From positions 1-36,550 of the IMG/VR virus record IMGVR_UViG_3300021225_000102: a DNA stretch of 36,550 bases; one strand, given 5' to 3'. This stretch comes from a virus. Position 1 is the stretch's first letter. Each line of letters opens with the position of its first letter. The position numbers were made by a program, and so were the translations under genes. A model generated the notes under the pieces. That model was not told the origin of the DNA, ran no database searches, and worked only from the letters and a program-made list of their open reading frames with translations. Of the stretch, positions 12,101 to 36,129 are shown in pieces.

Positions 12101-12716
12101 ACACTACATTGCCTACATTAGGTGCTGATGCAATCTTATTTAGCTTACGATACATCTCTATAGTTTCTACAGGAGCATACTTTGCTACAGATATTTGCAC
12201 CTCGTTTGTATAATACAATGGGTTACTTATAGCGGATTCAACATTTATTTTTCTTGGTTGGTTTCTATTGTCAGTCCAAAACAATAAATTTTCTAATAGG
12301 TTTAACCCTGTTATACTAAATTCAGGATTAGTTGCAAAATTTAAAAATGTTCCAGAAACCAATACCTTATAATCTGATGTAGTAAGATCGAACATAACAA
12401 TCTTATTAGTATATCCGTCTGGTTGTGGATCCATTATAACCGGTGATGGATCAAAATAGTTGGTTAAAAATTGGTATATACGATTATTTCTTTCATCCAT
12501 AAACGCCCCTATGCATCTCATAGTCTCGTCCTCTTCAATTGGATACCCATCTGGAATTGCATTACCCCATATTGGTTGTACAGTACCAATATCGCTACTT
12601 TCAGATTTACCTACTTGTATATTTAAAGCATCTCTATATTCTCCGTTTGGAATAAGTCTATCATCAAGATCTTTATTCATCTTAGCTGATAGAAAACTAT
12701 TTTTAACTTCTGCCAT
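6174..12716 (-). CDS. Giant tail nozzle/muzzle protein with C-terminal FISUMP lectin-like domain
   Basis: At 2180 aa this is the largest gene in the window. Residues 1-200 hold a start common in short-tailed phage nozzle or stabilisation proteins (NKDLDDRLIPNGEYRDALNI, then GTVQPIWGN and IGAFMDERNNRIYQFLTNY), consistent with beta-propeller blades. A long beta-rich middle follows, with a cadherin-like stretch around residues 1235-1355 (NNLTGALRVANGVQLEDYD). Residues about 1935-2155 match the FISUMP pattern: NYNGTEYRDGTPIPNV, YGKLYNFYTT, LAPYGWMIP, GFTAIGNGLR, ANYWTTYY, YGFSVRFVKE. FISUMP (Fib_succ_major) domains are common in Bacteroidota surface proteins and have a C-type-lectin-like fold. 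The protein probably forms the distal tail tube and may also bind the receptor. It follows the 404-aa adaptor by 4 bases. Confidence 0.85.
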   Translation of the reverse strand: MAEVKNSFLSAKMNKDLDDRLIPNGEYRDALNIQVGKSESSDIGTVQPIWGNAIPDGYPIEEDETMRCIGAFMDERNNRIYQFLTNYFDPSPVIMDPQPDGYTNKIVMFDLTTSDYKVLVSGTFLNFATNPEFSITGLNLLENLLFWTDNRNQPRKINVESAISNPLYYTNEVQISVAKYAPVETIEMYRKLNKIASAPNVGNVVSLEDATGITKGMQLVSNNINGGDFAIVVDVTGNDVTLYNTVDGPFDDDLIEAGDKVTFLASTMSDRSGVADWPGDPDFLQDRYVRFSYRYKFDDGEYSLMAPFTQIAYIPNQKGYFINGDENEAYRSTVVKWVENNTNNIELLIPFPDQINLVSNSYKITELDILYKESDSLAVKVVETVKIQPLSNLTTNIYTFQYQSQKPYKTLPEDQTVRVYDRVPVRARAQETVSNRVVYGNYRDKYFFENTINYNTAARPKSDVFTNFIEYPNHTLKQNRTYQVGFVLADKFGRQSSVILSEADLSTVTSGETVFGGSTVYAPFIDNEDILFPGTRKWFGNALSMVVNTPLNSNKSTLLGQSGLYAEPISPLGFAINYSNISGNVYEFELDSITWPDNVIVPSVGQYLRGKYKDYVEIISCESEDGVVTITTDGPINDLYNYNPEFSAIVPDIKYSYIINEIGWYSYKVVVRQQEQNYYNVYLPGILNGYPELQTYGSQLTYSNSDGVELATVGNATGNWSGSSFESGYTHIIGSSLPLTTTISAIPGSYYNVQYTITGAVSGADLKISFGDAELDNLTGAGSSYIRAITSNTLEITPDTNFAGTIKLSLKLANASLATNQNGINTTNFPVGETNRTAHVVLINDNINKIPRDLSEVGPDQKQYRSSVSLFGRVQNKSVFKGNIIGEQPDYDSVTTTIKYKSASQLSDAWQTIKPGDSIQCKEANDDIPGTPPLSNPNKWYANTVVVSNVYDPDTGDGVITFAPPNTILLGPTPSESYITFPVYSSTNEQYFPTTKADIATSIANALDFSFLDNSLENISGTAGVNFYQLQTNPIMSRISTKSGIGVEAGNVMLPFLAVYETKAEESLLDIFWESSTTGYISDLNWDVLTGFEGPVSVTPLELEFYEDQYDGGGSDTGASNSPYISDVFTTLNNQDIPVLSTTATMAVASTAGDVTDRFVLEDSITNPSLNPGEYRIRIATLPSGAPSFPFVFNYGDPLNEVYTFTIEFKYQIPGSINYYTFSIVDRVQLGNAQPIIEDGEGILTYNITSSDINIDTLTGVNGAYTVSANQEELYWEIETSDDSNKFSINNLTGALRVANGVQLEDYDSYEIIVKLTDATTTAGINEGTPTDNARGGTSLYTVAKVVINVLPPPVNSEIKPYITENNFLYNQSNTGGVCSPITTPTGLTAPFSTTNVKYGVVYVGKEPLLNNTSVNVLGNTTARDQLPATPVLGSFEFGTNTTRNYQRFVNIETAVNIQNLPTPSSPLPATVGFKKGTLRWTVVLGGTTSATNGTIQEASLLAYLWRRPAATNNQPNTNTWSRIIDDNNVFDTGTINSNFPDRYKSGITTNPTNSGIINNYPVDPHPAPKAGKYGENFLAIKLDCAEDEKGFRMTSFTTTAPQDGVDYEWALTLVLVDTSTGCTAPLDSVGANAMVYVHDANFYYDGTWGGTITPTNPPKFIFNDTTPITNEAYEYKTGMLDTIINGSYQRATPYLDSIPFHLQDNRTRLTFSSTMYKTTVVTAGPSGSQIITFGALGAPYNDQLINSIQTPNIQRVYNVNDNMSPGMTVWKVPAGVKSPSAAVEIGRVETVTNNTTFRFNPSTPGNTLAVNDIIIIKQSQDNSGQLWARTKFGNSIRQLYRDETCLLKWQPPVADKFYVVQTQTDQNMKGVGVADSLLLGKVSSTPLYCMNLNEKGKVHVDVNQGTEVKFNVQTCWDAGLFTDLESTYVNIAYKEGNAPKVYRNVWTTKNYNGTEYRDGTPIPNVTAHNEWNNLTTGAYCDYNNDLTNSETYGKLYNFYTTRDPNNVNIPSNRLAPYGWMIPYGSDPDFDQFLLLRKAGYLGYGIVGNLDRSSFLWREIGTAHWPTETTPASNDNLGFTAIGNGLRITGAEGMGFGRRNMEANYWTTYYENEGFTKKYRFFRVGKASDTLYSDWDRDDVKTYGFSVRFVKENMNTPGVYGRPLIQYLGAWSYDTVYDNG

Positions 12717-15885: not shown

Positions 15886-17283
15886 TTATGCTGGATTTGT
15901 TGTAGTAGTAAATAATACAAAATTATTTGCTCCTTGAACACATAAACATCTTTCTGATAAGAAGTGAACTTCCATTGCATCTAATGCAGAAGTTTGAGCT
16001 CCAACAGATCCTGTAATCCAGTGTTTCATTCTTCTGTCGTCATATTGAGAAGCTCTATATCTTACGTGTAAGAATGGTCTACGGATGTTAGTCCCTAAGA
16101 TTTCATCATATACTGTAGAAGTACCTGCGGGAACTAATAAACCTGAAATAGAACTATTAGCTAATGCTCCACGAGTAGATGCATCATTCAAATATTTCCA
16201 GTCAGTTTTGTAGAAATCATAAGATCCTCTTCTAAATCCAGAGAACCCAAGATTCAATGCCATTTTTTCTGAGTTTTCAAATAAACCGTAAGATGTACCA
16301 CCAGCTCCGTAAGAGTTCATAGTTGCTAACATATCATCAATCAATAAAGACATTTGACGGTTGTTAAAGATCATGTTCTCTTCAATAGCTCCTTGAGTAT
16401 CTAAGTTTTTCAAAATAGTATCAAAGTCAGTTAAATCACCAGAAAAATCAGCAACTTGGTTACCTCTTTCTTTAACAGCAGAAAATAAACCTTGTGTACC
16501 TTTGATACCTAAATTTGTTACTGCGGTATTAGTAGCAAGTTCCCCCTCTACAACAGCCATTTCTAGGTAATCTTCAAAACGCAAACGCGTTTCAGATTCT
16601 GCTTTAAGGAACCAGAAGAAACCATCAGCACCTTCTTCAGTTGTAATTTCTACCCACCCAATCTGAGATGTATCTGAACCGTTAACAACGTATTTAGATT
16701 TAATTATAATAGGTGAATTACTATATTGTGTAAATGATGGTTGAACAGATGTTAATGAATCATCATCTGTACCTTTTCTGAACTCAGACCCATATACAAA
16801 TATTTTAAGATCTACATCATCAAAACCAGTCCATGCTGTTGTAAGATATGGGATAGCCGTTACATCTAATCCATTAACAGCACTTACGTATGCTTTAACT
16901 TCTTGCCCAGCGCCATCAATAACAACAATTGTTTGACCAACTGATATTACATTTTCAACGCCAACAGCTGTAGGGATTGTTAAAACGTTAGTAGCTCTCT
17001 CAACTCCTGTATAAGCAATATGCAAACGATTTTGTTCTGACCAAACAACTTGATCTGAAGTCATAGGCATTTCTGCTCCAACCATTCTTAAAAATCCAGA
17101 TAACGTTCTGTTTCCATAACGTTCTACTTCTTGCTCGTAGATTTCTGGTAAATATTGTTGTGCAAAAGTTGAAAAATTTGGATTTGCTGAATCCGTAAAA
17201 TTTAAATAGTTTGTTTGTAATGTCTGTGGCTTTTGAGAAGGCACAATAGACCCGAAAAACGGGTTTGGGTTAAATGTTGACAT
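15886..17283 (-). CDS. Major capsid protein (HK97-type, crAss-like)
   Basis: The 465-aa length and position after portal and scaffold fit a major capsid protein. The strongest evidence is the block around residues 300-370: EENMIFNNRQMSLLIDDML, then GGTSYGLFENSEKMALNLGF, then SGFRRGSYDFYKTDWKYLN. I recognise this as highly conserved in crAss-like phages and related Bacteroidota phage capsids. The C-terminus has RASQYDDRRMKHWITGSVGA. It would assemble as the main shell subunit. The gene has its own strong terminator 12 bases downstream, consistent with high-level expression. The ATG at 17283 is preceded by an A-rich leader (CTAAAAAATT) rather than a Shine-Dalgarno sequence. Confidence 0.92.
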   Translation of the reverse strand: MSTFNPNPFFGSIVPSQKPQTLQTNYLNFTDSANPNFSTFAQQYLPEIYEQEVERYGNRTLSGFLRMVGAEMPMTSDQVVWSEQNRLHIAYTGVERATNVLTIPTAVGVENVISVGQTIVVIDGAGQEVKAYVSAVNGLDVTAIPYLTTAWTGFDDVDLKIFVYGSEFRKGTDDDSLTSVQPSFTQYSNSPIIIKSKYVVNGSDTSQIGWVEITTEEGADGFFWFLKAESETRLRFEDYLEMAVVEGELATNTAVTNLGIKGTQGLFSAVKERGNQVADFSGDLTDFDTILKNLDTQGAIEENMIFNNRQMSLLIDDMLATMNSYGAGGTSYGLFENSEKMALNLGFSGFRRGSYDFYKTDWKYLNDASTRGALANSSISGLLVPAGTSTVYDEILGTNIRRPFLHVRYRASQYDDRRMKHWITGSVGAQTSALDAMEVHFLSERCLCVQGANNFVLFTTTTNPA

Positions 17284-18461: not shown

Positions 18462-20879
18462 TTATTCTCCAAATAAATCAAACCCTAAGCCATTCATTAC
18501 GTCACTACCGGATGATTCAAAATCTTTTGGCATAGATTGGTTTTGTCTTTGATCTATTAATTCACTTTGTTGAGTACCTTGCATTTTTACTCTTTTATCT
18601 TTTCGGTCCTCAATTTCTTTTATTTTGTTTTGTTCTTTTGCTAAACTCATTTGAGCAAGTTGAGAGCTATAATTAAATTCTTCTGCCATTAATATTCTTT
18701 TAAGTTCCATTTCTGATTGCATTCTTTGGATCTCAAATTGTGATTTAGCTTGCTCTATTTGTATTTGTGTTTGGGCTAAAGCTTCTTGTTTTTGTACTTC
18801 AGCCATTGCTGATTTTTCAGCCAACTCAGCATTTGCTTGTGCTTGTGCTTGAATATTTTGTTGCTGTTGCTGTTGCTCTCTAGCTATTTTTTTCTTTCTT
18901 TTATATTTAAGAGATTGATTAGCAAGCTTTAAATTTTTTATTTGTCTAATATCAATTGCATCTTCTAAATCTATGCCTCCTGATTGCAGTGCTATTTGTA
19001 TGTTTTGTTCAAGTTGTGCTTTTTCTTCTTCATCTGGTTCTAATTCTAAATATATACCAAAGTCATGAAGATTTAAATTGGCTATTTCTCTTAGTGTTTG
19101 TACGTTAAATGTAGATATACCTTCTGTTAAACTATTTGCTGTTAATGGATAATTTAATGATTCCGCTGCTTTTAAGCATATATTTTCACATAATCTTAAT
19201 GTTAAATACAAACTTGATTGTACAATGTGTCTTGTAGCTGTATTAGAATTTGCCGCAGCTAATTTTTGTAACCCAACCAAAGCATTTGGATCTGGAGTAC
19301 TGCCGTCTCTTGCTTCATTCAAGCCCGTAACATCCCGGATCATTTGTAAATAGTATTGATACGTGGCTATAAGAGATTGTATTTTAGCATTACCATTAGA
19401 CGACTGTAGTTCTTGTATTGGCATTCTAGCTGCATTCTGTCCGCCATCTTGATTCATTGATCTACCAACTATACTACCTGTTTGGAAATACATACTAAGT
19501 GCTTCTGCCGCATTATAGTTTGTACCATTACCAAGATCTACTTCCGCTAAACTATCAACATCCACAAATACTCCATCAGGTACAATCTTAGATAATACTT
19601 GTTGTAATTTTAAGTGTGTTAATTGAATCATATCAGCAAAACCTATAGTTCGGCTTACAAGTGACTCTATTCTTCCACGGTACATTCTAGGTGCACAGAT
19701 GGTATAGTTCATTTCAACCTTTGTAGTATCTGCATATGGGCGTGTCATAAACTCACTCATTTCCCATTTTAACATCTTTTCCTTACCTAATATTTTTACC
19801 CCAGAGTATAATACTTCTATTGATCTAGATACTCTTTTAAATGTATCGTTTTCAGGCGGGTTAAATCCATCGTCTTTTTCTATAGCTTTTTCTAATCCTG
19901 AATCAGTTTGTTTAATTTTAAACACCTGATCCATAAAGGTTTTATACTCAAAATATAATACCTGCACATTACTTGAGTCGTAACTTTGAGCGTAATAGGT
20001 ATTTCTATAATTAGTGTCTCCTGGGAATTTTTCAATCTCTAAAAGATCTTCTTCTGTTAAACTTGGAAATTGTTTTCTAAGTTCTTCAAAACTAATAGTT
20101 TTAACTTCGCCAACATAATATATGTCTTCAAAGTTTGGATCCTCTGTATATGAATATACTAGATTAGCTGGATCAACGTAATCTAATTTAATACCTTCCG
20201 CTTTATTCCAACTTGTTTTAGCTGCTCCTATACCTAATACAGTTAAATCGTAATTTATCTTTCTATTAAGTAATTCGTATTTATTTCTAGCTAATGTATT
20301 ATTTATAACTTCTTCTGCTGCTTCTTCAACAGCTTCTTTATATGTTAGTTGTAAACGCAATGATAATTCATCGGTGTCTTCCGGTAAATCATCTGGATTT
20401 GGAGAATTAAATAGGTCTGCACCTAAATTATTTTTTATATCCATAAGCATATCCTTTGCCATCATATCCCTTAATATGCCTGATGCATAATCTGTTTTTT
20501 TCTTTACAGAAACAGGGTCTTGAGCATATGCTTTTATTTCGTAACTTTTGCTTGATATTCCATTTACAACAATATCAACAAATTTTGGTAATACGGGTAT
20601 TGGTTTCCAATCTAAATTTAAATAAGATAAATCACCATTAACTGACAATTCATCTTTATATTTCTGTATAGGCTGTTCTCCTCTAGCATATAATCTTAGT
20701 AAGTGAAATTGATTCCAATTAGCGCTCCATCTATCACCGCCTATTCCCCCATTGCGATTACCACGGAACCATTCGTTCTCAATTGCCTTGGCAACAGCTG
20801 TTCCATACTCTAAACTGTTCTTTACAGCTGTAGGCACTACTTGACTAGGAAATGTGCTATTATTATTTGTATAAATCAT
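18462..20879 (-). CDS. Portal protein (crAss-like size and motifs)
   Basis: The 805-aa protein directly follows the large terminase, sharing its boundary. Near residue 55 it reads QFHLLRLYARGEQPIQKYK and near 90 LDWKPIPVLPKFVDIVVNG, a pattern I associate with crAss-like and flavophage portals. The central region holds the usual portal core, including a Met/Gln-rich helix around 430-520. Residues about 640-760 are a long Gln/Ala/Glu coiled coil with a six-Gln run. Portals form the 12-fold ring through which DNA is packaged and leaves; the long C-terminal helix probably forms the barrel or crown inside the head. The ATG at 20879 abuts the terminase stop. Confidence 0.9.
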   Translation of the reverse strand: MIYTNNNSTFPSQVVPTAVKNSLEYGTAVAKAIENEWFRGNRNGGIGGDRWSANWNQFHLLRLYARGEQPIQKYKDELSVNGDLSYLNLDWKPIPVLPKFVDIVVNGISSKSYEIKAYAQDPVSVKKKTDYASGILRDMMAKDMLMDIKNNLGADLFNSPNPDDLPEDTDELSLRLQLTYKEAVEEAAEEVINNTLARNKYELLNRKINYDLTVLGIGAAKTSWNKAEGIKLDYVDPANLVYSYTEDPNFEDIYYVGEVKTISFEELRKQFPSLTEEDLLEIEKFPGDTNYRNTYYAQSYDSSNVQVLYFEYKTFMDQVFKIKQTDSGLEKAIEKDDGFNPPENDTFKRVSRSIEVLYSGVKILGKEKMLKWEMSEFMTRPYADTTKVEMNYTICAPRMYRGRIESLVSRTIGFADMIQLTHLKLQQVLSKIVPDGVFVDVDSLAEVDLGNGTNYNAAEALSMYFQTGSIVGRSMNQDGGQNAARMPIQELQSSNGNAKIQSLIATYQYYLQMIRDVTGLNEARDGSTPDPNALVGLQKLAAANSNTATRHIVQSSLYLTLRLCENICLKAAESLNYPLTANSLTEGISTFNVQTLREIANLNLHDFGIYLELEPDEEEKAQLEQNIQIALQSGGIDLEDAIDIRQIKNLKLANQSLKYKRKKKIAREQQQQQQNIQAQAQANAELAEKSAMAEVQKQEALAQTQIQIEQAKSQFEIQRMQSEMELKRILMAEEFNYSSQLAQMSLAKEQNKIKEIEDRKDKRVKMQGTQQSELIDQRQNQSMPKDFESSGSDVMNGLGFDLFGE

Positions 20880-23102
20880 TTATCTTATTATTTGCGAGCT
20901 ATTACCTGTATTGTTAAATCTTTTAAAGTTTAATGGTACAACTTGTTTTTGTAATGGATTTGATGGATAGTATAAGTGTCTGTTACATGCCATTATAGCT
21001 AATCCTGAACTTATCGAGGCATCATGCTTAGTTCTATTATTTATATTAAACCTAGCCCAATCCTCTAACGTTCTTTGAAAGTACATATCGCCATATCCTT
21101 CTTCTTTTAACCCAACATAATTTTCTATATACGTTTCAATTGCAGCCGCATGGGCTTGCATTATATCTTGTGATGAATTAGGTATTCCACCAACCTCACG
21201 TTCAAATGGGGATAATTTATTATATGTTTTATCCGGTCTATTAATAGAGAAACCTCTATACCCTCTTCTTTTTATATGATATAATAATCTTGGCTTATTA
21301 TTTTCTGCTAATATAGGCATTCCGTAAAATACTATTGCCATAAGAACTTCTTCAAAAAATATCTCAGATGTTTGTGGTCTAGCTATATACTCTAAGAAAA
21401 ACCTATTAGGAGGAACATCTTCCATTGAAAATTTAGTTAAACCTGATAATGCTCCATTAGATGCTCTTGAGTCCACTGTTCCAGATATATCATAACTATC
21501 ACACCCAAATGCCCCGCAATGTTCATTACCCGGGTATTTAAGTCCATCCTTTATTATTACGTTATTTTGTAAATGTTTAGGAGGTATCCATGAAACTAAG
21601 AATCTGCCGTCTTTATTAGGGTAGAATATAACCCTAGAATCTAATATACCGTTCTCCCATTGAAAACTACCTCTTGTTAATACATTTGTATTTCTTAGAT
21701 CTTCATTATAATCTATCTGTTCGTATATCTTTGTAAGATTAAACAACGATTGTTTTGTTTCATCTCTGAATGCGTGTTGTTCCGTTTTAGGAAACTGTCT
21801 ATAGTATTCGTTTAATCCGTCTGGATCATTCTTTAAACCGTCAACTTCATTTTGCCAATGTTCTAATACTCCATATTCTATAATATTGCCATCAACACCT
21901 TTTACCGGTTTTTCTGGAGTGTCGAAGACAGGTATGCCATAAGTATCAATGAATCCCTCGTACGACCATTCCATAGGTATGAACAAACTATATAATCCTG
22001 AGCTAGTCTGTCCATTGCGGTTTCTTTTCTTAACATCTGAATCATAGTAGAGTCTTTTAAAATTTTCTCCTCCTTTATCAAGTGCATTTGATGTTGAACC
22101 CATCATACACTTACCAATAATTTTACTACCTAATCTTAGACAGGTTTTAGTAACCCTCCAATTATTCAATATATTATCAGGTCTCAACCATTTACCGCTC
22201 TCATCATGAACTAGTAATTTAAGTTTTTCACCATCATAAGAGTTATCACCAGTATTCTTCCAATCTATTGTTGTATCAAGTCCTTCAAGTTCTTCGGGAT
22301 TTTCTTGACTATCTAATTTTCTTCTTGTAAACTTTGAAGCAGGAACTCTATAAGCAAGTTCTGTTTTTGGTCTATCCATACCGTCTTGTATGGGTTTAAA
22401 GAAGAAAGGATAGTTAATTGAAATTGGAACAACTTTGTCTGTGAACATCGTTTTAGCATCTGCTCCTGATTTTGATAATATACCAAACCTAGAATCGCTT
22501 GATATAGTAGCTTGATTTACAATTTCAGAAGATGACATAAAAGAAAACCCGGAACGTCTATTCTTTAAATAACACATTCCATAACATCTTGAATCTGCTT
22601 TGCAAGCTTCCCAAAATATAAAAAATAATCTATTTGATTCTCTAAAGTCAGGGGCACCAACATCAATCTTACTCCATTGCAAGTACATATAATGTGTACC
22701 GGTTATATATGTAGGAACTCCATTATTATAAAATGAAAAACCTTCTTCTCTGCGTTTGAATTCGTTGTCTACATAGTCATACCATTTTTCCTTGAAGTGA
22801 TCTGGATATTTATTCCAATCAAATACACTTTTTATTTTTTCAAGTTCTTTTGGTATTTTTAATTGCTCCCAGTGTTGCTCTTCTTTCTTTGGAGTTCTTT
22901 TGAAAGAATCCTCAATTAAAGGCAATGCAATCCTTAAATTTTGTATCTCGTATATTTCACCAATCTTACCCGTTTTGCTTATAATAACTAAGTCGTACTC
23001 TTTATTATAACCGTACTTCCATTTATTATATCGGTTTTGTTGTTTAATCACGGAAGGTTTTACGTAGTCAGGTAGTATCCTATAAAGCGTTTGTTCGTAC
23101 AT
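20880..23102 (-). CDS. terL: Terminase large subunit (packaging ATPase-nuclease)
   Basis: At 740 aa it is long for a terminase but typical of crAss-like phages. The ATPase part has a deviant P-loop (KNRRSGFS, about 180-187), a clear Walker B (LKLLVHDES, D300 and E301) and a coupling motif (MMGSTSN, 333-339). The nuclease part has acidic metal-ligand candidates D535/D538 (GCDSYD), E600 (PILAE) and D646 (SSQDIMQA). YITGTHYMYLQWSKID near 132-147 is also characteristic of this group. It would pump DNA into the procapsid through the portal encoded next. Its ATG overlaps the stop of the upstream 91-aa gene by one base. Confidence 0.93.
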   Translation of the reverse strand: MYEQTLYRILPDYVKPSVIKQQNRYNKWKYGYNKEYDLVIISKTGKIGEIYEIQNLRIALPLIEDSFKRTPKKEEQHWEQLKIPKELEKIKSVFDWNKYPDHFKEKWYDYVDNEFKRREEGFSFYNNGVPTYITGTHYMYLQWSKIDVGAPDFRESNRLFFIFWEACKADSRCYGMCYLKNRRSGFSFMSSSEIVNQATISSDSRFGILSKSGADAKTMFTDKVVPISINYPFFFKPIQDGMDRPKTELAYRVPASKFTRRKLDSQENPEELEGLDTTIDWKNTGDNSYDGEKLKLLVHDESGKWLRPDNILNNWRVTKTCLRLGSKIIGKCMMGSTSNALDKGGENFKRLYYDSDVKKRNRNGQTSSGLYSLFIPMEWSYEGFIDTYGIPVFDTPEKPVKGVDGNIIEYGVLEHWQNEVDGLKNDPDGLNEYYRQFPKTEQHAFRDETKQSLFNLTKIYEQIDYNEDLRNTNVLTRGSFQWENGILDSRVIFYPNKDGRFLVSWIPPKHLQNNVIIKDGLKYPGNEHCGAFGCDSYDISGTVDSRASNGALSGLTKFSMEDVPPNRFFLEYIARPQTSEIFFEEVLMAIVFYGMPILAENNKPRLLYHIKRRGYRGFSINRPDKTYNKLSPFEREVGGIPNSSQDIMQAHAAAIETYIENYVGLKEEGYGDMYFQRTLEDWARFNINNRTKHDASISSGLAIMACNRHLYYPSNPLQKQVVPLNFKRFNNTGNSSQIIR

Positions 23103-23377
23103 TATTTAGACCTCCCTTCTGCAAATCCTTTAAAAGTCTTTATTGTAGGATCTTTATCTTCTTCTTCTAGCATACGAGTTTCATCCTGTATTCTACTTAG
23201 AATTTCAAAAGCATCAAATATAGCTAATTTTTTTGTTGCAGCTGCATTCTTTAATTTATCTGCGGATAAATCATCATCCCCATTATCTAATATAGCTTCC
23301 TCTGCAACTTTAATTAACTCAAGAACTGCTTTGTGCCCAGCTTGGATTATATTCTGCTTCGTTTCCTTTATATTCAT
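23102..23377 (-). CDS. Small helical protein upstream of terL, terminase small-subunit candidate
   Basis: This is a 91-aa, nearly all-helical protein (AGHKAVLELIKVAEEAIL, then KKLAIFDAFEILSRIQDETR). Its stop overlaps the terL start, and its own ATG lies 59 bases inside the 3' end of the 203-aa gene, so translation is probably coupled on both sides. Position directly before terL and the small helical design suit a terminase small subunit, but no helix-turn-helix is obvious and I cannot name a family. A DNA-packaging accessory role is the fallback reading. Confidence 0.7.
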   Translation of the reverse strand: MNIKETKQNIIQAGHKAVLELIKVAEEAILDNGDDDLSADKLKNAAATKKLAIFDAFEILSRIQDETRMLEEEDKDPTIKTFKGFAEGRSK

Positions 23378-23930
23378 ATTTAATTACAATATCATTTGAT
23401 TTCATACAATATAATCTTTCGCTGTCAACTATAAAGTCATATTCGCCATAAGGTTTATACCCCACTAGGTCCCCACGATTGATTTTAAGCTCGTTTAATG
23501 AGCTATTGTCATATTTTAGTATTCCAATAAGCCTTTGTTCTTTATCTAGTTTAAAATGGTCTATATTCTTTAACGGTTTTACAAAGCACCTGTCGCCAAC
23601 AGTATTCCATTTGCCATCTTGCTTATATAAATATATTTGATCCAACTCGCAAAAGTATAAATCTTCCATAAGATATGCGCGACTATTCTTTTGCTTTCCT
23701 CTAATATCATAAAATCTTCTAAATACATTATGATGTATAATTACTAAATCACCAACTTTTATATCAGTATTTTCTATTGCTAATGGAATAGCTACAACCT
23801 CAGCTAGATTATTTACAGATTTAAAACTTTCAATCGATGTATTGATAATTAATTCTTTATCCCCGACGGAAACCTTATTATCGTATCTGTCCCCAACTGG
23901 TCTCACTAAATAATTAAATACACTTCTCAT
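23319..23930 (-). CDS. Tandem GroES-like beta-barrel protein (203 aa), function unknown
   Basis: Two halves each resemble the GroES fold pattern. The first (about 8-120) has LVRPVGDRY at the start, then LAEVVAIP, DIKVGDLVIIHH and a late strand region ending RCFVKPL. The second (about 130-187) reads RLIGILKY, KINRGDLVGYKP, GEYDFIVDSERLY and KSNDIVI, like the second half of GroES (GEVLAVG, VKVGDIVIF, ESDILAI). No GroES mobile loop with a hydrophobic tripeptide is obvious, so chaperonin binding is not assured. The gene starts with a one-base TAATG overlap. It may be a virion or packaging factor that reuses the barrel fold. Confidence 0.65.
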   Translation of the reverse strand: MRSVFNYLVRPVGDRYDNKVSVGDKELIINTSIESFKSVNNLAEVVAIPLAIENTDIKVGDLVIIHHNVFRRFYDIRGKQKNSRAYLMEDLYFCELDQIYLYKQDGKWNTVGDRCFVKPLKNIDHFKLDKEQRLIGILKYDNSSLNELKINRGDLVGYKPYGEYDFIVDSERLYCMKSNDIVIKYEYKGNEAEYNPSWAQSSS

Positions 23931-26020: not shown

Positions 26021-26335
26021 TTATTGCTTTTTATAAGCCTCTTTCTCCCAAGGAAGATTTTTAGCCCCTTCTTTCATTTTAGAACGAGCATACTTTTTGC
26101 CTTTCCAAATAACGTGAGAATCTGTGTAATCCAAATCCCCTCGTTTTATTTGATCAATATGAACCATCTCATGCTCTATCGTTTTATTTTTTTTTAACTC
26201 TAAAGGTGATGCATTCTGATTAATAAGTATTGTACCATTTGATTGCGCCATACCAAGAATATTGTCCTCCATATCTGTACTATAAATCGGAGTATTATTT
26301 AAAGTATACGGAGGACCTTTCATTATAAATGCCAT
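26021..26335 (-). CDS. Minimal HExxH metallopeptidase-like protein (104 aa)
   Basis: KTIEHEMVHIDQIKRGDLDY (51-70) contains a zinc-binding HEMVH motif (H55, E56, H59). A third ligand could be a Glu in the C-terminal NLPWEKEAYKK (E97 or E99), as in small gluzincins where an acidic helix follows. A Trp-Lys-Gly strand (VIWKGKKY) lies between. At 104 residues it is about the smallest size for such a fold. There is no signal peptide. It might process virion proteins or be a structural relic. Its ATG is one base after the stop of the upstream 55-aa basic gene. Confidence 0.7.
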   Translation of the reverse strand: MAFIMKGPPYTLNNTPIYSTDMEDNILGMAQSNGTILINQNASPLELKKNKTIEHEMVHIDQIKRGDLDYTDSHVIWKGKKYARSKMKEGAKNLPWEKEAYKKQ

Positions 26336-27947: not shown

Positions 27948-28199
27948 TTATAAGGTTGATAAATTATAATTTGGAACAACCGGGTTTTTAACGGCTGTTG
28001 GTGGGGGTTGAGGCATGGACCTATCAAACGATCCTTGCATTGGCATACCATACATATTAATCATTGATTGTTGGTCTCCAGGCGAAAACGGAACCGGGGC
28101 CCCTGTTGTTTTGACTCCTGGATTAAATAGTCTAGGATCCACAGTAGCAGATACAGGTTGTGCTGGTGTTTGTAGATTTGTAACTCCTGTATTATTCAT
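27948..28199 (-). CDS. Pro-rich small protein of unknown function (83 aa)
   Basis: The sequence is dominated by Pro, Asn, Gly and Met (VDPRLFNPGVKTTGAPVPFS, later MPQPPPTAVKNP) and is probably disordered. Its ATG overlaps the end of the winged-helix-like gene by 8 bases, so it is likely translated by coupling from that message. No family is recognised. Confidence 0.6.
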   Translation of the reverse strand: MNNTGVTNLQTPAQPVSATVDPRLFNPGVKTTGAPVPFSPGDQQSMINMYGMPMQGSFDRSMPQPPPTAVKNPVVPNYNLSTL

Positions 28200-28641
28200 A
28201 ATTGGTATTTTTATTTGCGTTATTTATAGACTTAATTAATACTGTGTCAGTATAAGTTTTACCTCTCATTATTTTATTACTTCTTGGGCTTGTTGGTATT
28301 TCTTCTTCTCCAATCATTATTCGATACATGCGATTTATCAGCATCCTACACTTAAAAGAAACTTTATATATATTGTATTTTTGGGTTGTATGATTTCTAT
28401 TTCTCCACACAACTATCCATCCTTCTTTTAATAAATTATTCCAACGTTTATTATCCCAACTATAAGCATATGTACCTATCTTGTAATCTTGCTTTGTGAA
28501 AAAATCCATACAATCAAAATAGATCAATAACTCTAAATCAGCATCGGTTAAATCATTATTCCTGCATGCCCACCTGCGAATTATCCTATAATGCTTTAAT
28601 ATATTGTTATTTCTGAGATCGTTAAATTCTAAACGTTTCAT
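28192..28641 (-). CDS. Winged-helix-like DNA-binding protein (149 aa)
   Basis: Residues 12-115 have the plan of a winged helix: HYRIIRRWACRNND, then DLELLIYFDCMDFFT, then KRWNNLLKEGWIVVWRNRNH as recognition helix plus wing, and a last helix CRMLINRMYRIMIGEEEIP. MarR-type regulators have this layout, and I recall similar proteins in marine and Bacteroidota phages. It may regulate late transcription or bind packaged DNA. The start overlaps the GroES stop by four bases (ATGA), tying it to the chaperonin genes. The basic, Asn-rich C-terminus (about 120-149) looks disordered. Confidence 0.65.
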   Translation of the reverse strand: MKRLEFNDLRNNNILKHYRIIRRWACRNNDLTDADLELLIYFDCMDFFTKQDYKIGTYAYSWDNKRWNNLLKEGWIVVWRNRNHTTQKYNIYKVSFKCRMLINRMYRIMIGEEEIPTSPRSNKIMRGKTYTDTVLIKSINNANKNTNYE

Positions 28642-28898
28642 AGTTTAACAACAATATCATCTATCTTTATTAACCTGTAATCTTTATCTATCCCTTCAAG
28701 CATATGACCAGCAACCATATCGTATAATATCTTAGTTCCCGGCTCTAAACCTAATATAGGCATACCTATTGATATAATTTCTGCTTCTCTATATCTTATG
28801 TCTTCTCTAGTTTTATTATCCATTAGAAGACCTTTTTCACTTTTGCTTAAAATATCTTTTTTAGGCAAAACTATTACGTACTTACCTATTGCTTCCAT
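28638..28898 (-). CDS. groES: Co-chaperonin GroES-like protein (86 aa)
   Basis: This is the ring-shaped lid of the chaperonin. It begins GKYVIVLPKKD like GroES (HDRVIVKRKE). Residues about 15-32 form the mobile loop, with GLLM at 23-26 in place of the E. coli GIVL that docks on GroEL. EAEIISIGMP matches GEVLAVG, EPGTKILYD matches KVGDIVIF, and KIDDIVVKL matches ESDILAIVE. It is slightly shorter than the usual 95-97 residues. The ATG at 28898 is inside the groEL 3' end (17-base overlap); a TTG three bases upstream is also possible but less likely. Confidence 0.85.
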   Translation of the reverse strand: MEAIGKYVIVLPKKDILSKSEKGLLMDNKTREDIRYREAEIISIGMPILGLEPGTKILYDMVAGHMLEGIDKDYRLIKIDDIVVKL

Positions 28899-30441
28899 CA
28901 ATTCTTAAATTATTGATTACACAATCTGTTGACAATATAGTGATAGCTACAGATGCCGCATTTCTTAATGCGCTTTTAGTAACAAGTAATGGATCAATTA
29001 TGCCGGCTTCTATCATATTAACAGTTTCACCTGTTACAACATTTAAACCGTATCCTACTTTTGATATTGCTTCTAAAGGTGCATTATCTATACCTGCATT
29101 ATCTAATATAGTATTAAATGGTGCTCTAATAGAATCTAATAATATTTCTTCTCCAAGTGAGAAGGCATCTATATTGTGAGAAGCGTTTAATAAAGCAATT
29201 CCACCTCCTGGCACAATACCTTCTTTAATAGCCGCTTTGGTTGCACATATTGCATCTTCAACTCTATCAGCTTTTTCTCTAAGCTCTATATCTGAATTAG
29301 CCCCTACTTTTATTACAGCAATTTTAGCGGATAGCCTAGCCAACCTTTTTTCTAGTCGAATTACTTCGTTAGGTTTTTTAGCTTTTGATATATCCTTTTT
29401 AATATTTAGGATAATATTATCCACCTCTTCTGTTTGTTTATTAATCTTTAGTATTGTTTCTTGATCGTATGTTATACTTTTTATACAATTACCTAAATGT
29501 TCTGGTTGTATTAAATCCATATCATCACCAAGATCTTCATTTATAACTGTGGCTCCTGTTAATAAAGCTAAGTCATATATTGTATCTTTTTTATTAACGC
29601 CATATGTTGGTGCGTTTATAACATTAACCTTTAGATTGCCTTTAACCTTATTCATGGCTAATGCAGCTATAACAGGTTGATCTAAATCTGCAATAATCAA
29701 CAATGCTCTTTTCTGTTCGATTGCATATTCTAATACAGATCTTATTTGTCTTATATTAGTTATAGGTGATTCAATTATTAAAACTAATGGATTATCTAAT
29801 TCAGCAGCTTTAATTTCAGGATTTGTAACGAAATGTGCATTAACTAATCCTTTATCATATTGAACCCCTTCTACTATTTCTACTTCTGTATCTGATAACG
29901 CTGAGTGTTCTAACATAACAACACCGGTATTTCCAACAGCTCTAAAGGCATCTCCTATTATTTTGCCTAAGTATGGATCATTGTTAGCAGATATTGTTGC
30001 AATCTGATCCAACATATTATCATCAACAGTTATACTTGTCTTTTCTAAATAATCTATTACTTTATTTACTGCTGAGGTTATGCCTTCTTTTATTTTTCTT
30101 TCATTTGGATTTTCAACCATATGAGCATTCTTTAAAATAGAATGTGCTAATATTGTAGCAGTTGTGGTTCCGTCTCCAGCTTCTTTAACAGTCTTGCGCG
30201 CGGCTTCTTTTAAAAGTCTAGCACCCATGTTTTCTATAGGGTCTAATAGTATAATACTATCTGCTACTGTTACCCCATCTTTTGTAATAACTGGATTACC
30301 AGAACTATCCTCAAGCATCACGCATTTACCACTAGCCCCTAATGTAGAACTAACGGCTTTAGTTAGTTTTGTTATCCCCTCGAATACTTTATCCCTAGCT
30401 TCATTTCCAAAGCTAAGATTCTTTACAATTGCATCTGTCAT
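28882..30441 (-). CDS. groEL: Phage-encoded chaperonin GroEL (519 aa)
   Basis: All three domains are present. Equatorial ATP-site residues are kept: TKDG with D55 (E. coli D52), GDGTTTAT at 89-96, VEDA with D396 (E. coli D398), PGGG at 411-414 and IIDP with D483 (E. coli D495). The TLGPKG loop is changed to TLGASG (33-38). Apical residues that hold substrate and GroES differ from E. coli: Y199 is L, Y203 is H, L234 is R, V263/V264 are A/M; F204 and L237 are kept. The C-terminus ends LRIDGSNR without the GGM repeats. It would fold phage proteins such as the capsid in the host cytoplasm, with the GroES encoded next. Confidence 0.95.
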   Translation of the reverse strand: MTDAIVKNLSFGNEARDKVFEGITKLTKAVSSTLGASGKCVMLEDSSGNPVITKDGVTVADSIILLDPIENMGARLLKEAARKTVKEAGDGTTTATILAHSILKNAHMVENPNERKIKEGITSAVNKVIDYLEKTSITVDDNMLDQIATISANNDPYLGKIIGDAFRAVGNTGVVMLEHSALSDTEVEIVEGVQYDKGLVNAHFVTNPEIKAAELDNPLVLIIESPITNIRQIRSVLEYAIEQKRALLIIADLDQPVIAALAMNKVKGNLKVNVINAPTYGVNKKDTIYDLALLTGATVINEDLGDDMDLIQPEHLGNCIKSITYDQETILKINKQTEEVDNIILNIKKDISKAKKPNEVIRLEKRLARLSAKIAVIKVGANSDIELREKADRVEDAICATKAAIKEGIVPGGGIALLNASHNIDAFSLGEEILLDSIRAPFNTILDNAGIDNAPLEAISKVGYGLNVVTGETVNMIEAGIIDPLLVTKSALRNAASVAITILSTDCVINNLRIDGSNR

Positions 30442-30502: not shown

Positions 30503-30634
30503 TTATCCTTGTCCTCTAGATAACTTCTTGTAATTTTTAGATGTTTTTAAATTGGATGTTTTTGATTTAGCATGAATACCTGGTCTTGCAATATTCCTTA
30601 CAACACGTTTAACAGTCGCGATTTGTTTTGCCAT
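30503..30634 (-). CDS. Basic mini-protein overlapping the spanin gene (43 aa)
   Basis: A short frame starts at an ATG at 30634, 37 bases inside the 3' end of the spanin gene, and ends at a TAA at 30505-30503. It reads MAKQIATVKRVVRNIARPGI and then HAKSKTSNLKTSKNYKKLS, ending RGQG. It is strongly Lys/Arg-rich like the other mini-proteins of this window. Without it the span from the spanin to groEL would be an unusually long gap. The function is unknown; nucleic-acid binding is likely. Confidence 0.65.
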   Translation of the reverse strand: MAKQIATVKRVVRNIARPGIHAKSKTSNLKTSKNYKKLSRGQG

Positions 30635-31086
30635 AATAAATATATAATTAATATTAATAATATCCACCAAAAGAAAGTCCAATAATTTTGTTCTTTATCA
30701 ATTATTTTTGTTTTGTCAACTTGGTGTTCTTTTGTTTTTACTTTAGATGTTGCTGTGGAATCAATACGCTTAATATTAACCTCTTTTTTGGTATTTGTAT
30801 ATAATGTATTAGATTTATTTTTTTTAATCTTTAAAACAACATTTTTATAACTTTTACCATCAACTATAATTGTTTTACTTGAATCTATAGGTGTTATAAC
30901 AATTTCACTACTATCTGTATCTATAGTTACTTTTGTAGAATCTGTTTTATTCACAGTATCTATTTTTGTAACTGCTACTTTTGTTTCTGCAATACTATCT
31001 TTCTTTATATCAGTTTTATCAACTAATACTTTTCTTGAAGAGCATGATGTTAAAAACACCATTATTATAAATATAATTTTTTTCAT
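30598..31086 (-). CDS. Putative unimolecular spanin (lipoprotein with C-terminal membrane segment)
   Basis: The N-terminus is a lipoprotein signal (MKKIIFIIMVFLTSC) with lipobox LTSC, C15 being the lipidated residue for outer-membrane anchoring. Residues 16-133 are a Lys/Asp/Thr-rich periplasmic stretch. Residues about 135-152 are one membrane segment (NYWTFFWWILLILIIYLLW) followed by a short basic end. An outer-membrane lipid anchor and an inner-membrane segment in one chain are the layout of u-spanins such as T1 gp11, which fuse the two membranes in the final step of lysis. It directly follows the endolysin gene by 10 bases. The class is inferred from layout; spanins share little sequence. 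Confidence 0.75.
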   Translation of the reverse strand: MKKIIFIIMVFLTSCSSRKVLVDKTDIKKDSIAETKVAVTKIDTVNKTDSTKVTIDTDSSEIVITPIDSSKTIIVDGKSYKNVVLKIKKNKSNTLYTNTKKEVNIKRIDSTATSKVKTKEHQVDKTKIIDKEQNYWTFFWWILLILIIYLLWQNKSRLLNVL

Positions 31087-31096
31087 TTTTTTAAAT

Positions 31097-31555
31097 TTAA
31101 TCTTTAACTTGAAAATGCATCCAGTCGTAATTTTTTTCTCTACCTAAACTTTCAAACCCATGTTTGTAAAATATGTCGATCATCGGTTTATATTCCATAC
31201 GCGCAAATCTTGCGGTCTTTGAGGTTTCTTTTAATAAATTCCTACTTGGATTTAAATCAATAGCGCACCCCCAACTATGTACACTTAACTGAGTGCCTCC
31301 GCGCATTAAACGATAATTAAAACACCCACCATAATCATCAATCTTTAAATCGCTAATTGCATCCTGCCCATAGAATTCTAATATATCATTAAAGATTGCA
31401 AGTAGTTTGTCTGCAACTAATTTATGGCAACGGATTTTATTTACTTTTTTACCGTCATAATACATTGGGTAAGGCAAAGTTATTGGTACAATATATCCTT
31501 TCCCGTCTTTATTTGGGGTACCGTATTTAGCTATAAGTTCCTCCTGAGTTATCAT
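31097..31555 (-). CDS. M15-family peptidase endolysin (152 aa)
   Basis: Zinc ligands of the M15 peptidase family are visible: SVHSWGCAIDLNP gives H93 and D100, and YDWMHFQV gives the second His H147, with D144 placed as catalytic acid. The 152-residue size is that of single-domain phage L-alanyl-D-glutamate or D-Ala-D-Ala endopeptidases that cut the peptide stems of peptidoglycan. There is no signal peptide, so it needs a holin; the holin candidate gene overlaps its start by 29 bases and the spanin candidate follows. Confidence 0.9.
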   Translation of the reverse strand: MITQEELIAKYGTPNKDGKGYIVPITLPYPMYYDGKKVNKIRCHKLVADKLLAIFNDILEFYGQDAISDLKIDDYGGCFNYRLMRGGTQLSVHSWGCAIDLNPSRNLLKETSKTARFARMEYKPMIDIFYKHGFESLGREKNYDWMHFQVKD

Positions 31556-33306: not shown

Positions 33307-35568
33307 TTATGTATATATTGTTGTTTCTCTATCTGTCCATTTAACATTTATTGCACTTGCAGTTGTAACTGCTCCTGCTAATGTTATTGTTAATCTTGTT
33401 ATTGTCCATACTGATGCACTTTCTAAACTATCTGCAGGAGCAATTCCACAATAATTAATACTGTTATTTGTTGAATTATTTGCGTTTCTTCTTTCTGCTG
33501 CTACGGCTAAAACATTCTTATGCTCCCACAACTGGGTTGTAGAGTTGTAGAATATACCATCGTTATTATTTGGATTAAGAGCATCTACATTATGAAGTTC
33601 TTGGAGCTCATACCCGTTTTGCACCCTTACATATATTCTACCTGCCGCACCATTACTTGCTGTTGTAACAACCCCAAGATAAACTAAGTGGTTAGGAGCA
33701 TAAGGTTTAATATTTGTAATTGTTCCTGCTGTTGCACCAAGATATACAGGATCACCATCTGCCCAAGTTGATGTTGGAAGGATACTTAATCCATCTAACA
33801 AACCTTGAATCATTATCAGACCCTTCTGATTAGTTGCAATAGAGGTAGATAATACTAATCCAACTGTCTGAGCAGAAGTTGCATCTCCTGTATTATAAGC
33901 TCTCTTTACAGTCATTCTATCTCCTGTGCCTCCAAAAGCATACACAGGCATTCCTTTTGTTAAAGTAACAGAATCTGCATTTGTAACATAAGCAAATAAA
34001 CTATTAGGAGCAGTTCCAATAACTTGAAATCTATTTGTTGTTGAATTATATACACAAAGCATTTCACCTCCTGAAATAATATCACCACCAATTAAAACTC
34101 CATCATTATTTCTATATAACGGTATTGCTCCTAAAGAATTTATATTTAATGTAGCACTTGAAGTATTACCATTAGTAAATCTAATCAAGTAGGCATCAGC
34201 ATCATTATATGCAGTAACTCCTGAAACTGTTGCAGTATATGTATCAGTTCCTGACGCAGTTGCATGAGGTATTCCACTTGTAGTTGGTATATCAGAAAGT
34301 AATGCTATTGTGCCGCTTGCATTTTGTAGTGTTTGAGTATTTGTTCCTGAAATAGTAGCAGGTGATTTTAAATATAAAATGTTTGCCCCATTTTGAAATG
34401 TAAGATCATCGTCTACTGATATTTTAGTAATTTTACCTGTAGTAATATTATTAAAATTAGCAAAAGACAATGTTAAGGCAGAATAATATGGACTTAACCC
34501 AGGATTTGTAATAGATATTGCGTTTGTACTAGTATTACCTGCGGTTGTAACTTGTTGTAAAGTTGGAACAGTAACACTTGGAAATGTAGCTAATGTACCA
34601 TCTCCTCTAATGTATTGTGATATTGTACCTGTAGGTATAGGATAGTATGTAGATGCTGCGTCAGTTATTGTTAAATATGTGTTTGTATCTAAAGCAAATG
34701 TTCCTGCGGCAGTCATCTTTACAAATGGAGTACCTGACACCCATATAGGATAATTTAATGCCCCCCATGTGCCAACTGTTGGTATATTGGAAGTTAAAGC
34801 TAAAGTACCAGAAGCATTAGGCAACTGCCAAGACCATGAGCCCGTTACTAGATCTGATCTTAAATTTCCATAACCAACTGAAGTTTGGAACACTATACTT
34901 CCATCATTAAGAAGTTGAGTATACAGGTCTGTTCCATTACCTACGAATAACCCGGCGTAAGGCACATACTGGAAATTATTAATTCCATCGTAAGAATCCG
35001 AAATATATATCCCATAACCATCCGAACTAAAGTTGCCTGAGGTTATACCCCCCACTGTTATTGAATTAGTAGTTATACTACCTTCGTCAGTTACTTCTTG
35101 AAGTGTTGGGATTGTAACCACCGGCACATCTGATAATAAAGCAACTGTACCAGACTTATCAGGGAAATCCCATATTTGATTAGCCGTTATATTACTTACT
35201 TCAAATGAACCTCTATACCCGGATGCCGAGAATGAACTAAACATATCTCTCTGCGCTCTGAATACTTCGCCATGCGTAACAGTATTAAAAGAAAACCTAT
35301 TCTGATTTAATGCGATATTACCATAGTTCGCTACAGGCGTATCATATAAATATAACTCCCCTATTTTAGCATCTAATAACGATGTATTCCCAACTAGTAA
35401 TACGTCGTCTAAAGATACATTCTGTTTAATGAACCCCGTTAAATCCCCAATACTAAAATTCTTTGTTGCATTTTTAGGCTGGCCATTGACTATCTTTGTA
35501 GACGTGCCAATGAGCATATCTTCCGCTAGGAGTATCGAATTTAAAGGATAATTATATATTATAGCCAT
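33307..35568 (-). CDS. Tail or head fibre protein (753 aa)
   Basis: The N-terminal module (1-130) begins MAIIYNYPL, then NFSIGDLTGF and FPDKSGTVALLSDVP; the same plan occurs in the 184-aa neighbour. Three copies of the (P/D/N)xSGT(V/L/I)AL motif and two PTLQ(E/Q)VT repeats mark fibrous segments (about 130-410). From about 425 a module common in marine phage fibres appears (LIRFTNGNTSSATLNINSLG, LTKGMPVYAFGG, YAPNHLVYLGVV, NGYELQELHNVDALNP). The N-terminus probably attaches to the virion and the rest projects outwards to bind the host. Whether it is a tail or head fibre cannot be told from sequence. Confidence 0.8.
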   Translation of the reverse strand: MAIIYNYPLNSILLAEDMLIGTSTKIVNGQPKNATKNFSIGDLTGFIKQNVSLDDVLLVGNTSLLDAKIGELYLYDTPVANYGNIALNQNRFSFNTVTHGEVFRAQRDMFSSFSASGYRGSFEVSNITANQIWDFPDKSGTVALLSDVPVVTIPTLQEVTDEGSITTNSITVGGITSGNFSSDGYGIYISDSYDGINNFQYVPYAGLFVGNGTDLYTQLLNDGSIVFQTSVGYGNLRSDLVTGSWSWQLPNASGTLALTSNIPTVGTWGALNYPIWVSGTPFVKMTAAGTFALDTNTYLTITDAASTYYPIPTGTISQYIRGDGTLATFPSVTVPTLQQVTTAGNTSTNAISITNPGLSPYYSALTLSFANFNNITTGKITKISVDDDLTFQNGANILYLKSPATISGTNTQTLQNASGTIALLSDIPTTSGIPHATASGTDTYTATVSGVTAYNDADAYLIRFTNGNTSSATLNINSLGAIPLYRNNDGVLIGGDIISGGEMLCVYNSTTNRFQVIGTAPNSLFAYVTNADSVTLTKGMPVYAFGGTGDRMTVKRAYNTGDATSAQTVGLVLSTSIATNQKGLIMIQGLLDGLSILPTSTWADGDPVYLGATAGTITNIKPYAPNHLVYLGVVTTASNGAAGRIYVRVQNGYELQELHNVDALNPNNNDGIFYNSTTQLWEHKNVLAVAAERRNANNSTNNSINYCGIAPADSLESASVWTITRLTITLAGAVTTASAINVKWTDRETTIYT

Positions 35569-35574
35569 TGCCTA

Positions 35575-36129
35575 TTATACTAGTCTTATTCTTACTATGC
35601 CATTATTATGATATAACCCCCCTACTGCAATACCTCCTGCTGCAGCCGCCGTGTCATTTGCAAAATTATTTTCTGTCTGCGGCAGATCCTCTATTAAAGC
35701 AACGGTTCCATTGGCATCCTGAAAAGTGACTGTTCTATTATCAGTAACAGTTGTTGGTTTCATAATATCAAGCTGATATTCATCTCCAGCATTTGCCAAA
35801 CTCAAAGTATCTTGACTTAAATTACCATAATACTCTCCTACGTTATTATAGAAATTAAATCTATTTTTATTTCCTGTAATATATGGATATCCAAGGCCGG
35901 ATGCCGCATGGTCATTGTATAAAAATATACCGCCTACCTTAGCATCAATCTGTGATACATTGTCGTTATCTAAAACGTCGTTAAGCGTTACAAATCCCTG
36001 TGTAAAAGAAGCAAGGTCACCCACACTATAGTTTTTAACTATTCGTGCCCCATTTTCCATTTCACTACCTAAAACCCAACTATCGTTTGTTACCACATCC
36101 GCTAACGGATAACTGTATATTAGTGCCAT
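35575..36129 (-). CDS. Short fibre paralogue (184 aa)
   Basis: The protein is a paralogue of the N-terminal module of the next gene: MALIYSYPL against MAIIYNYPL, KNYSVGDLASF against KNFSIGDLTGF, DAKVGGIFLYND against DAKIGELYLYDT, and ANGTVALIEDLP against KSGTVALLSDVP. It then ends after a short tail (GGLYHNNGIVRIRLV) instead of continuing into fibre repeats. It probably occupies the same virion attachment sites as the longer protein, or caps them. It arose by duplication or by loss of a distal part. Its stop is 6 bases before the next ATG. Confidence 0.75.
   Translation of the reverse strand: MALIYSYPLADVVTNDSWVLGSEMENGARIVKNYSVGDLASFTQGFVTLNDVLDNDNVSQIDAKVGGIFLYNDHAASGLGYPYITGNKNRFNFYNNVGEYYGNLSQDTLSLANAGDEYQLDIMKPTTVTDNRTVTFQDANGTVALIEDLPQTENNFANDTAAAAGGIAVGGLYHNNGIVRIRLV

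Follow-up and report, generated by a model that had tools for sequence, protein, structure and literature searches.

A reversed viral groEL-groES pair and a predicted tandem Cpn10 lid encoded beside the terminase gene of a podovirus-like phage

We report here that a podovirus-like phage encodes a group I-like chaperonin subunit, a single Cpn10 lid and, just before its terminase gene, a second lid protein predicted to comprise two Cpn10 domains. The DNA analyzed (the window) covers 36.5 kb of the 36.87-kb virus record IMGVR_UViG_3300021225_000102. With a probability of about 0.6, in our estimation, these proteins constitute a dedicated, phage-owned folding machine for virion proteins, made up of the phage's own GroEL ring, its GroES lid and the tandem lid. 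The phage would produce the ring and the matching single lid through overlapping translation, and the tandem lid would be supplied from the packaging module beside the terminase, portal and capsid genes. Substrate would enter the ATP-driven phage ring, which would be capped via a hydrophobic mobile loop by the single lid, by the N domain of the tandem lid, or by both in a mixed ring, and late phage proteins would fold within the capped ring. An altered apical groove would be expected to favor phage lids and clients over those of the host. This model, in which we infer complex formation, capping, client identity and lid specificity, is supported by the order and overlap of the gene pair in 72 contigs, dN/dS values, ATPase residues, mobile-loop motifs and the predicted tandem fold; the near fixation of the groove changes in the clade and the invariable position of the tandem gene beside terL also count in its favor.

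The groEL gene (positions 28882-30441, minus strand, 519 amino acids) matches Pfam Cpn60_TCP1 (2.2e-61) and PHROG groEL (8e-131), with a Cpn60 domain that spans the whole protein (Pfam 26-510; profile positions 1-487 of 490). The groES gene (28638-28898, minus strand, 86 amino acids) matches Pfam Cpn10 (2.8e-05, above the gathering score), and its product keeps the hydrophobic mobile-loop motif GLLM/GGLLL with a minimal roof segment, so that it passes as a Cpn10 domain with a mobile loop. Both proteins thus lie above the Pfam cut-offs, in agreement with the complete pair recognized in an earlier note on this sequence, and no further Cpn60 is present elsewhere in the virus record. The ATG start of groES at 28898 (stop at 28638) lies inside the 3' end of groEL, and the resulting 17-base overlap (28882-28898, minus strand), which is exactly as noted earlier, is a candidate for translational coupling; an in-frame TTG start would give an overlap of 20 bases.

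Relatives were collected by a scan of viral contigs, which gave 52 loci with GroEL proteins 54-98% identical to that of the window, and by a terminase scan, which gave 80 loci. On 71 of 72 distinct viral contigs with groEL, groEL is followed by groES, the reverse of the bacterial order. The overlap is mostly 1-23 bases, with a 1-base gap in four contigs and a 376-base gap in one; on the 72nd contig (L141), the longest-ORF call puts the groES start within groEL and gives an overlap of 65 bases, beyond the cut-off. Among 80 bacterial loci, 74 have groES-groEL and none has groEL-groES, which bears out the statement of the earlier note that bacterial operons are nearly always ordered groES-groEL. 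Mostly between 0.01 and 0.2, dN/dS indicates purifying selection on groEL, groES, the tandem-lid gene and the gene that adjoins groES. Because the open frame and the gene order recur on 72 contigs and dN/dS is far below 1, chance ORFs are excluded. Unusually fast evolution of GroES, suggested by identities of 41-44% as opposed to 66-77% for GroEL in some pairs, was considered and rejected, given that bacterial GroES and GroEL diverge in about the same proportion.

The arrangement is less unusual than had been claimed in the earlier note. The order groEL then groES is already annotated in Elemovirus (Flavobacterium phages elemoA-F, NC_055853), Maribacter phage Panino (PP540027) and podovirus MW202828, and the authors of the Panino description mention GroEL and GroES homologs (PMC11590407). 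These phages also share with the window a Cpn10-like gene of tandem length just before terL, annotated as plain GroES or as hypothetical, and related terL, portal and capsid genes; they differ in that their GroELs are 37-39% identical and the neighbor gene is on the opposite strand. The normal order groES-groEL is found in phages immuto, SJC03 and Calle and in a gut phage. The reversed pair was therefore known as an arrangement annotated in relatives, and what is new here is the recognition of the tandem lid and of fixed changes in the GroEL groove.

The groEL-groES pair represents a viral lineage of long standing and was not picked up recently, because phages with groEL-groES share one branch outside Bacteroidota. 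In a GroEL tree of 119 rows, the 22 members of the clade are set apart, outside Bacteroidota, by a branch with a support of 99. Some caution is needed, as Elemovirus, Panino and MW202828 have long branches; in a tree of 63 rows from which the longest branches were left out, a single branch with a support of 99/91 separates all phages with reversed order from the rest. Identity to the phage protein reaches only 40-42% among the best-matching bacterial GroELs, which are spread over many phyla. That the pair came from a host in one recent event, as a groE operon rearranged by chance, is thus very improbable, even though host-like capture does occur in other phages: the GroELs of SJC03 and LR756501 nest in Bacteroidota, and those of Vibrio phages phiKT1024, K356 and 1.255.O nest in the gammaproteobacteria. 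Since these sequences nest among bacteria, in phyla that match those of the named hosts, the tree method detects host captures. The earlier note had reserved the reading of a recent pick-up for a GroEL that groups inside one host genus and has relatives of normal gene order; the clade is located outside Bacteroidota and the order is reversed in all close relatives, and we reject a recent host capture on the basis of the GroEL tree and gene order together.

Numbered relative to E. coli GroEL, the catalytic residue D398 is present in all 72 clade members, D52 in 68 and D87 in 69, the remainder being gaps. Because these residues are kept, the ATPase of the phage GroEL is expected to work. At the apical groove, L234 is replaced by Q or R in 71 of 71 members, Y203 by H in 66 of 71 and V264 by M in 68 of 71, and there are also replacements of Y199 by L and of V263 by A, while F204 and L237 are kept. 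Positions L234, Y203 and V264 are nearly invariant in bacteria and changed almost throughout the phage clade. In E. coli, the residues changed here bind both substrate and GroES. The inter-ring contact residues S463 and V464 are gapped in every one of the 72 members, corresponding to a shortened inter-ring segment that would be compatible with single rings, and a GGM tail, present in 70 of 80 bacteria, was found in none of the 67 full-length clade members. Based on these replacements, client recognition, lid recognition and ring pairing of the phage GroEL are probably altered.

The groove changes remove substrate- and GroES-binding residues, and the ring could therefore be a non-encapsulating holding chaperone. 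According to this alternative, which we consider unlikely, the phage GroEL is an open holdase or buffer that works without lid capping, as in phage EL, and the lids serve the host GroEL in the manner of T4 gp31. The changed lid-binding residues and the inter-ring gap fit this alternative, as does phage phi19:3 (NC_021789), which encodes a tandem Cpn10 and a single 85-amino-acid Cpn10 and lacks GroEL across 76 kb; a lid can therefore exist, and be useful, without a phage ring. However, the order and overlap of groEL and groES are kept across the clade, suggesting that the two proteins act jointly.

The second lid, which the earlier note had overlooked, is encoded at 23319-23930 (minus strand, 203 amino acids), just before the terminase gene, and was recognized by fold prediction and by a profile match of its C-terminal half. 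The Pfam Cpn10 match is confined to the C half (7e-4), which profile comparison also identified as a GroES relative (E 1.2e-9). The N half aligns with the GroES profile in a collinear manner at a probability of 29%, and because this match is weak, the assignment of the N domain as Cpn10 rests on the predicted structure; a profile comparison of the two halves with each other gave no convincing match. An AlphaFold2 model based on 79 sequences (pLDDT 86.6, pTM 0.80; lower at the mobile-loop region, with 74 for residues 21-30 and 68 for residues 31-40) predicts two Cpn10 domains arranged head to tail. In a Foldseek comparison with the PDB, the tandem lid chains of a chloroplast ClpP complex, 7ekq_R and 7ekq_Q, rank first (E 6e-6, TM 0.53 over both domains), followed by many GroES chains and, lower down and weakly, by T4 gp31. 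Judging by their length, we take 7ekq chains Q and R to be CPN20/23. A sequence search of the PDB with the tandem lid retrieved no Cpn10, and fold comparison alone revealed the likeness. Among viral protein models, full-length matches to the tandem lid come from a "chaperonin cpn10" of phi18:3 and from unnamed proteins of about the same size.

A mobile loop, looked for in both domains as a mark of a tandem Cpn10, is present in the N domain only: the N domain keeps the hydrophobic motif in a conserved, probably flexible loop, and the C domain has a shortened loop from which the hydrophobic tripeptide is absent. Because the C domain lacks a mobile loop, we classify the protein as a tandem Cpn10 by architecture and not as a member of the Cpn20 family. 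The gene is present in every one of the 62 terminase-anchored loci whose upstream sequence was long enough, always beside terL. This fixed position, together with a ClpP-bound lid as the top fold match, could indicate that the tandem Cpn10, instead of serving as a chaperonin lid, acts in packaging or morphogenesis or caps a different heptameric ring, for example that of host ClpP, by analogy with the chloroplast complex 7ekq. We regard such a role as quite unlikely, in view of the conserved, probably flexible mobile loop of the first domain and of the presence of the tandem lid together with Cpn60 and Cpn10 in most relatives. A point against the folding machine is the symmetry problem posed by two-domain subunits on a sevenfold ring. 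Seven tandem-lid subunits might build a double-storey cap, or the tandem lid might join GroES in a mixed ring, as has been proposed for chloroplast Cpn10/Cpn20 (PMC5780408). Our more specific proposal is tentative: a three-part viral chaperonin parallel to chloroplast Cpn60/Cpn10/Cpn20, in which the one-loop tandem lid would form a taller or mixed cap and the cage would be specialized for capsid and portal proteins.

Chloroplast Cpn20/Cpn23 likewise has two head-to-tail Cpn10 domains alongside a single Cpn10, and a review describes a tandem-Cpn10 lid as unique to chloroplasts (PMC5780408). The phage protein differs from it by an identity of about 15%, with no match at the sequence level, and by the absence of a mobile loop from the C domain. 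In a search of openly licensed papers we found no description of a tandem Cpn10 in a phage, and a 2020 paper on Baltic Flavobacterium phages makes no mention of chaperonins. The families Pervagoviridae (Calle, phi38:1) and Pachyviridae (phi19:3) share with the window a tandem lid near terL and a single Cpn10, with the differences that Cpn10 precedes GroEL in Calle and that GroEL is missing in phi19:3; "chaperonin cpn10" is listed as a Pervagoviridae core protein (PMC8776804). Neither Cpn10 nor GroEL was found in phage Gundel. E. coli GroEL-GroES has in common with the phage system the Cpn60 and Cpn10 domains, the ATPase residues and a lid with a mobile loop, whereas bacterial systems differ in gene order, groove residues, GGM tail and inter-ring segment. 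T4 gp31 is also a phage-encoded co-chaperonin of the Cpn10 fold; it is a single-domain protein that pairs with host GroEL (PMC5780408), a use that fits phi19:3 but not the phage examined here, which has its own groEL. Phages EL and AR9 likewise encode a Cpn60, with an identity of about 26% and no Cpn10 found beside the gene, and their GroELs are separate from the clade in the tree, subject to the caveat of long branches. The EL chaperonin acts without GroES, and non-encapsulating holding has been proposed for it (PMC7185714). For viruses of the Southern Ocean, a GroEL/GroES analog has been reported in the majority (PMC8407431).

The best-studied phage cases thus diverge, T4 gp31 borrowing the host ring and the EL chaperonin working without a lid. 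The lineage of the window is abundant, with at least 600 terminase matches, and seems to carry a ring, its own lid and a tandem lid in addition. It provides a small system for asking how even-domain lids cap sevenfold rings, and a route to how a chaperonin becomes client-specific, for which relatives with lids but no ring, such as phi19:3, are a natural comparison.

As the earlier note observed, the pair is located amid structural and lysis genes. On one side of groEL is a lysis cassette of an M15 endolysin (31097-31555) and a lipoprotein (30598-31086), and on the other is the block of terL (20880-23102, minus strand; phrog_6681, 6.5e-167), a P22-like portal protein (18462-20879, minus strand; phrog_6547, 3e-143) and a virion structural protein (15886-17283, minus strand; phrog_13704, 1.6e-97), all three matching PHROG head-and-packaging families. 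The last of these is the probable major capsid protein and, we infer, a candidate chaperonin substrate; the suggestion of the earlier note that GroEL-GroES would fold the phage's own virion proteins is retained here as a supposition. The attribution to a Bacteroidota podovirus-like phage is supported by the named terminase relatives, which are all podovirus-type phages of Flavobacterium, Cellulophaga, Tenacibaculum or Maribacter, apart from one unassigned spring-water podovirus.

The description of a fused groEL-groES-wHTH coupled unit stands only with respect to the overlapping ORFs, as the genes are separate. The third gene (28192-28641, minus strand) overlaps groES by 4 bases, follows it in nearly all relatives and encodes a conserved 149-amino-acid protein of phrog_17028, to which no function is assigned. 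Its identity as a wHTH protein was not confirmed: it has no Pfam family, its all-helical model is of moderate confidence (pLDDT 78.9), and the model has no PDB fold match at E<=10. A DNA-binding role is suspected. Between the tandem lid and the terminase, a 91-amino-acid protein (23102-23377, minus strand), whose gene abuts terL and shares 59 bases with the tandem-lid gene, is by position a candidate small terminase. TerL comprises 876-879 amino acids in Elemovirus, Panino and phi38:1 vs 740 here, and a small-terminase-like part may have been split off from, or fused to, TerL among these phages.

Several other ORFs of the window, all on the minus strand, were observed. A 104-amino-acid protein with a zinc-protease-like HEMVH motif (26021-26335), located between groES and the tandem lid, is conserved in most relatives. 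Two adjacent fibre-like proteins (33307-35568 and 35575-36129) resemble each other in part of their N-terminal sequence, which suggests that a fibre anchor has been duplicated, and the C-terminal end of a structural-looking protein of 2180 amino acids (6174-12716) may be akin to the FISUMP-type domains of Bacteroidota. A basic ORF of 43 amino acids (30503-30634; MAKQIATVKRVVRNIARPGIHAKSKTSNLKTSKNYKKLSRGQG), absent from the ORF list, lies between groEL and the lysis cassette, and at least 23 of 66 relatives have similar peptides ahead of groEL.
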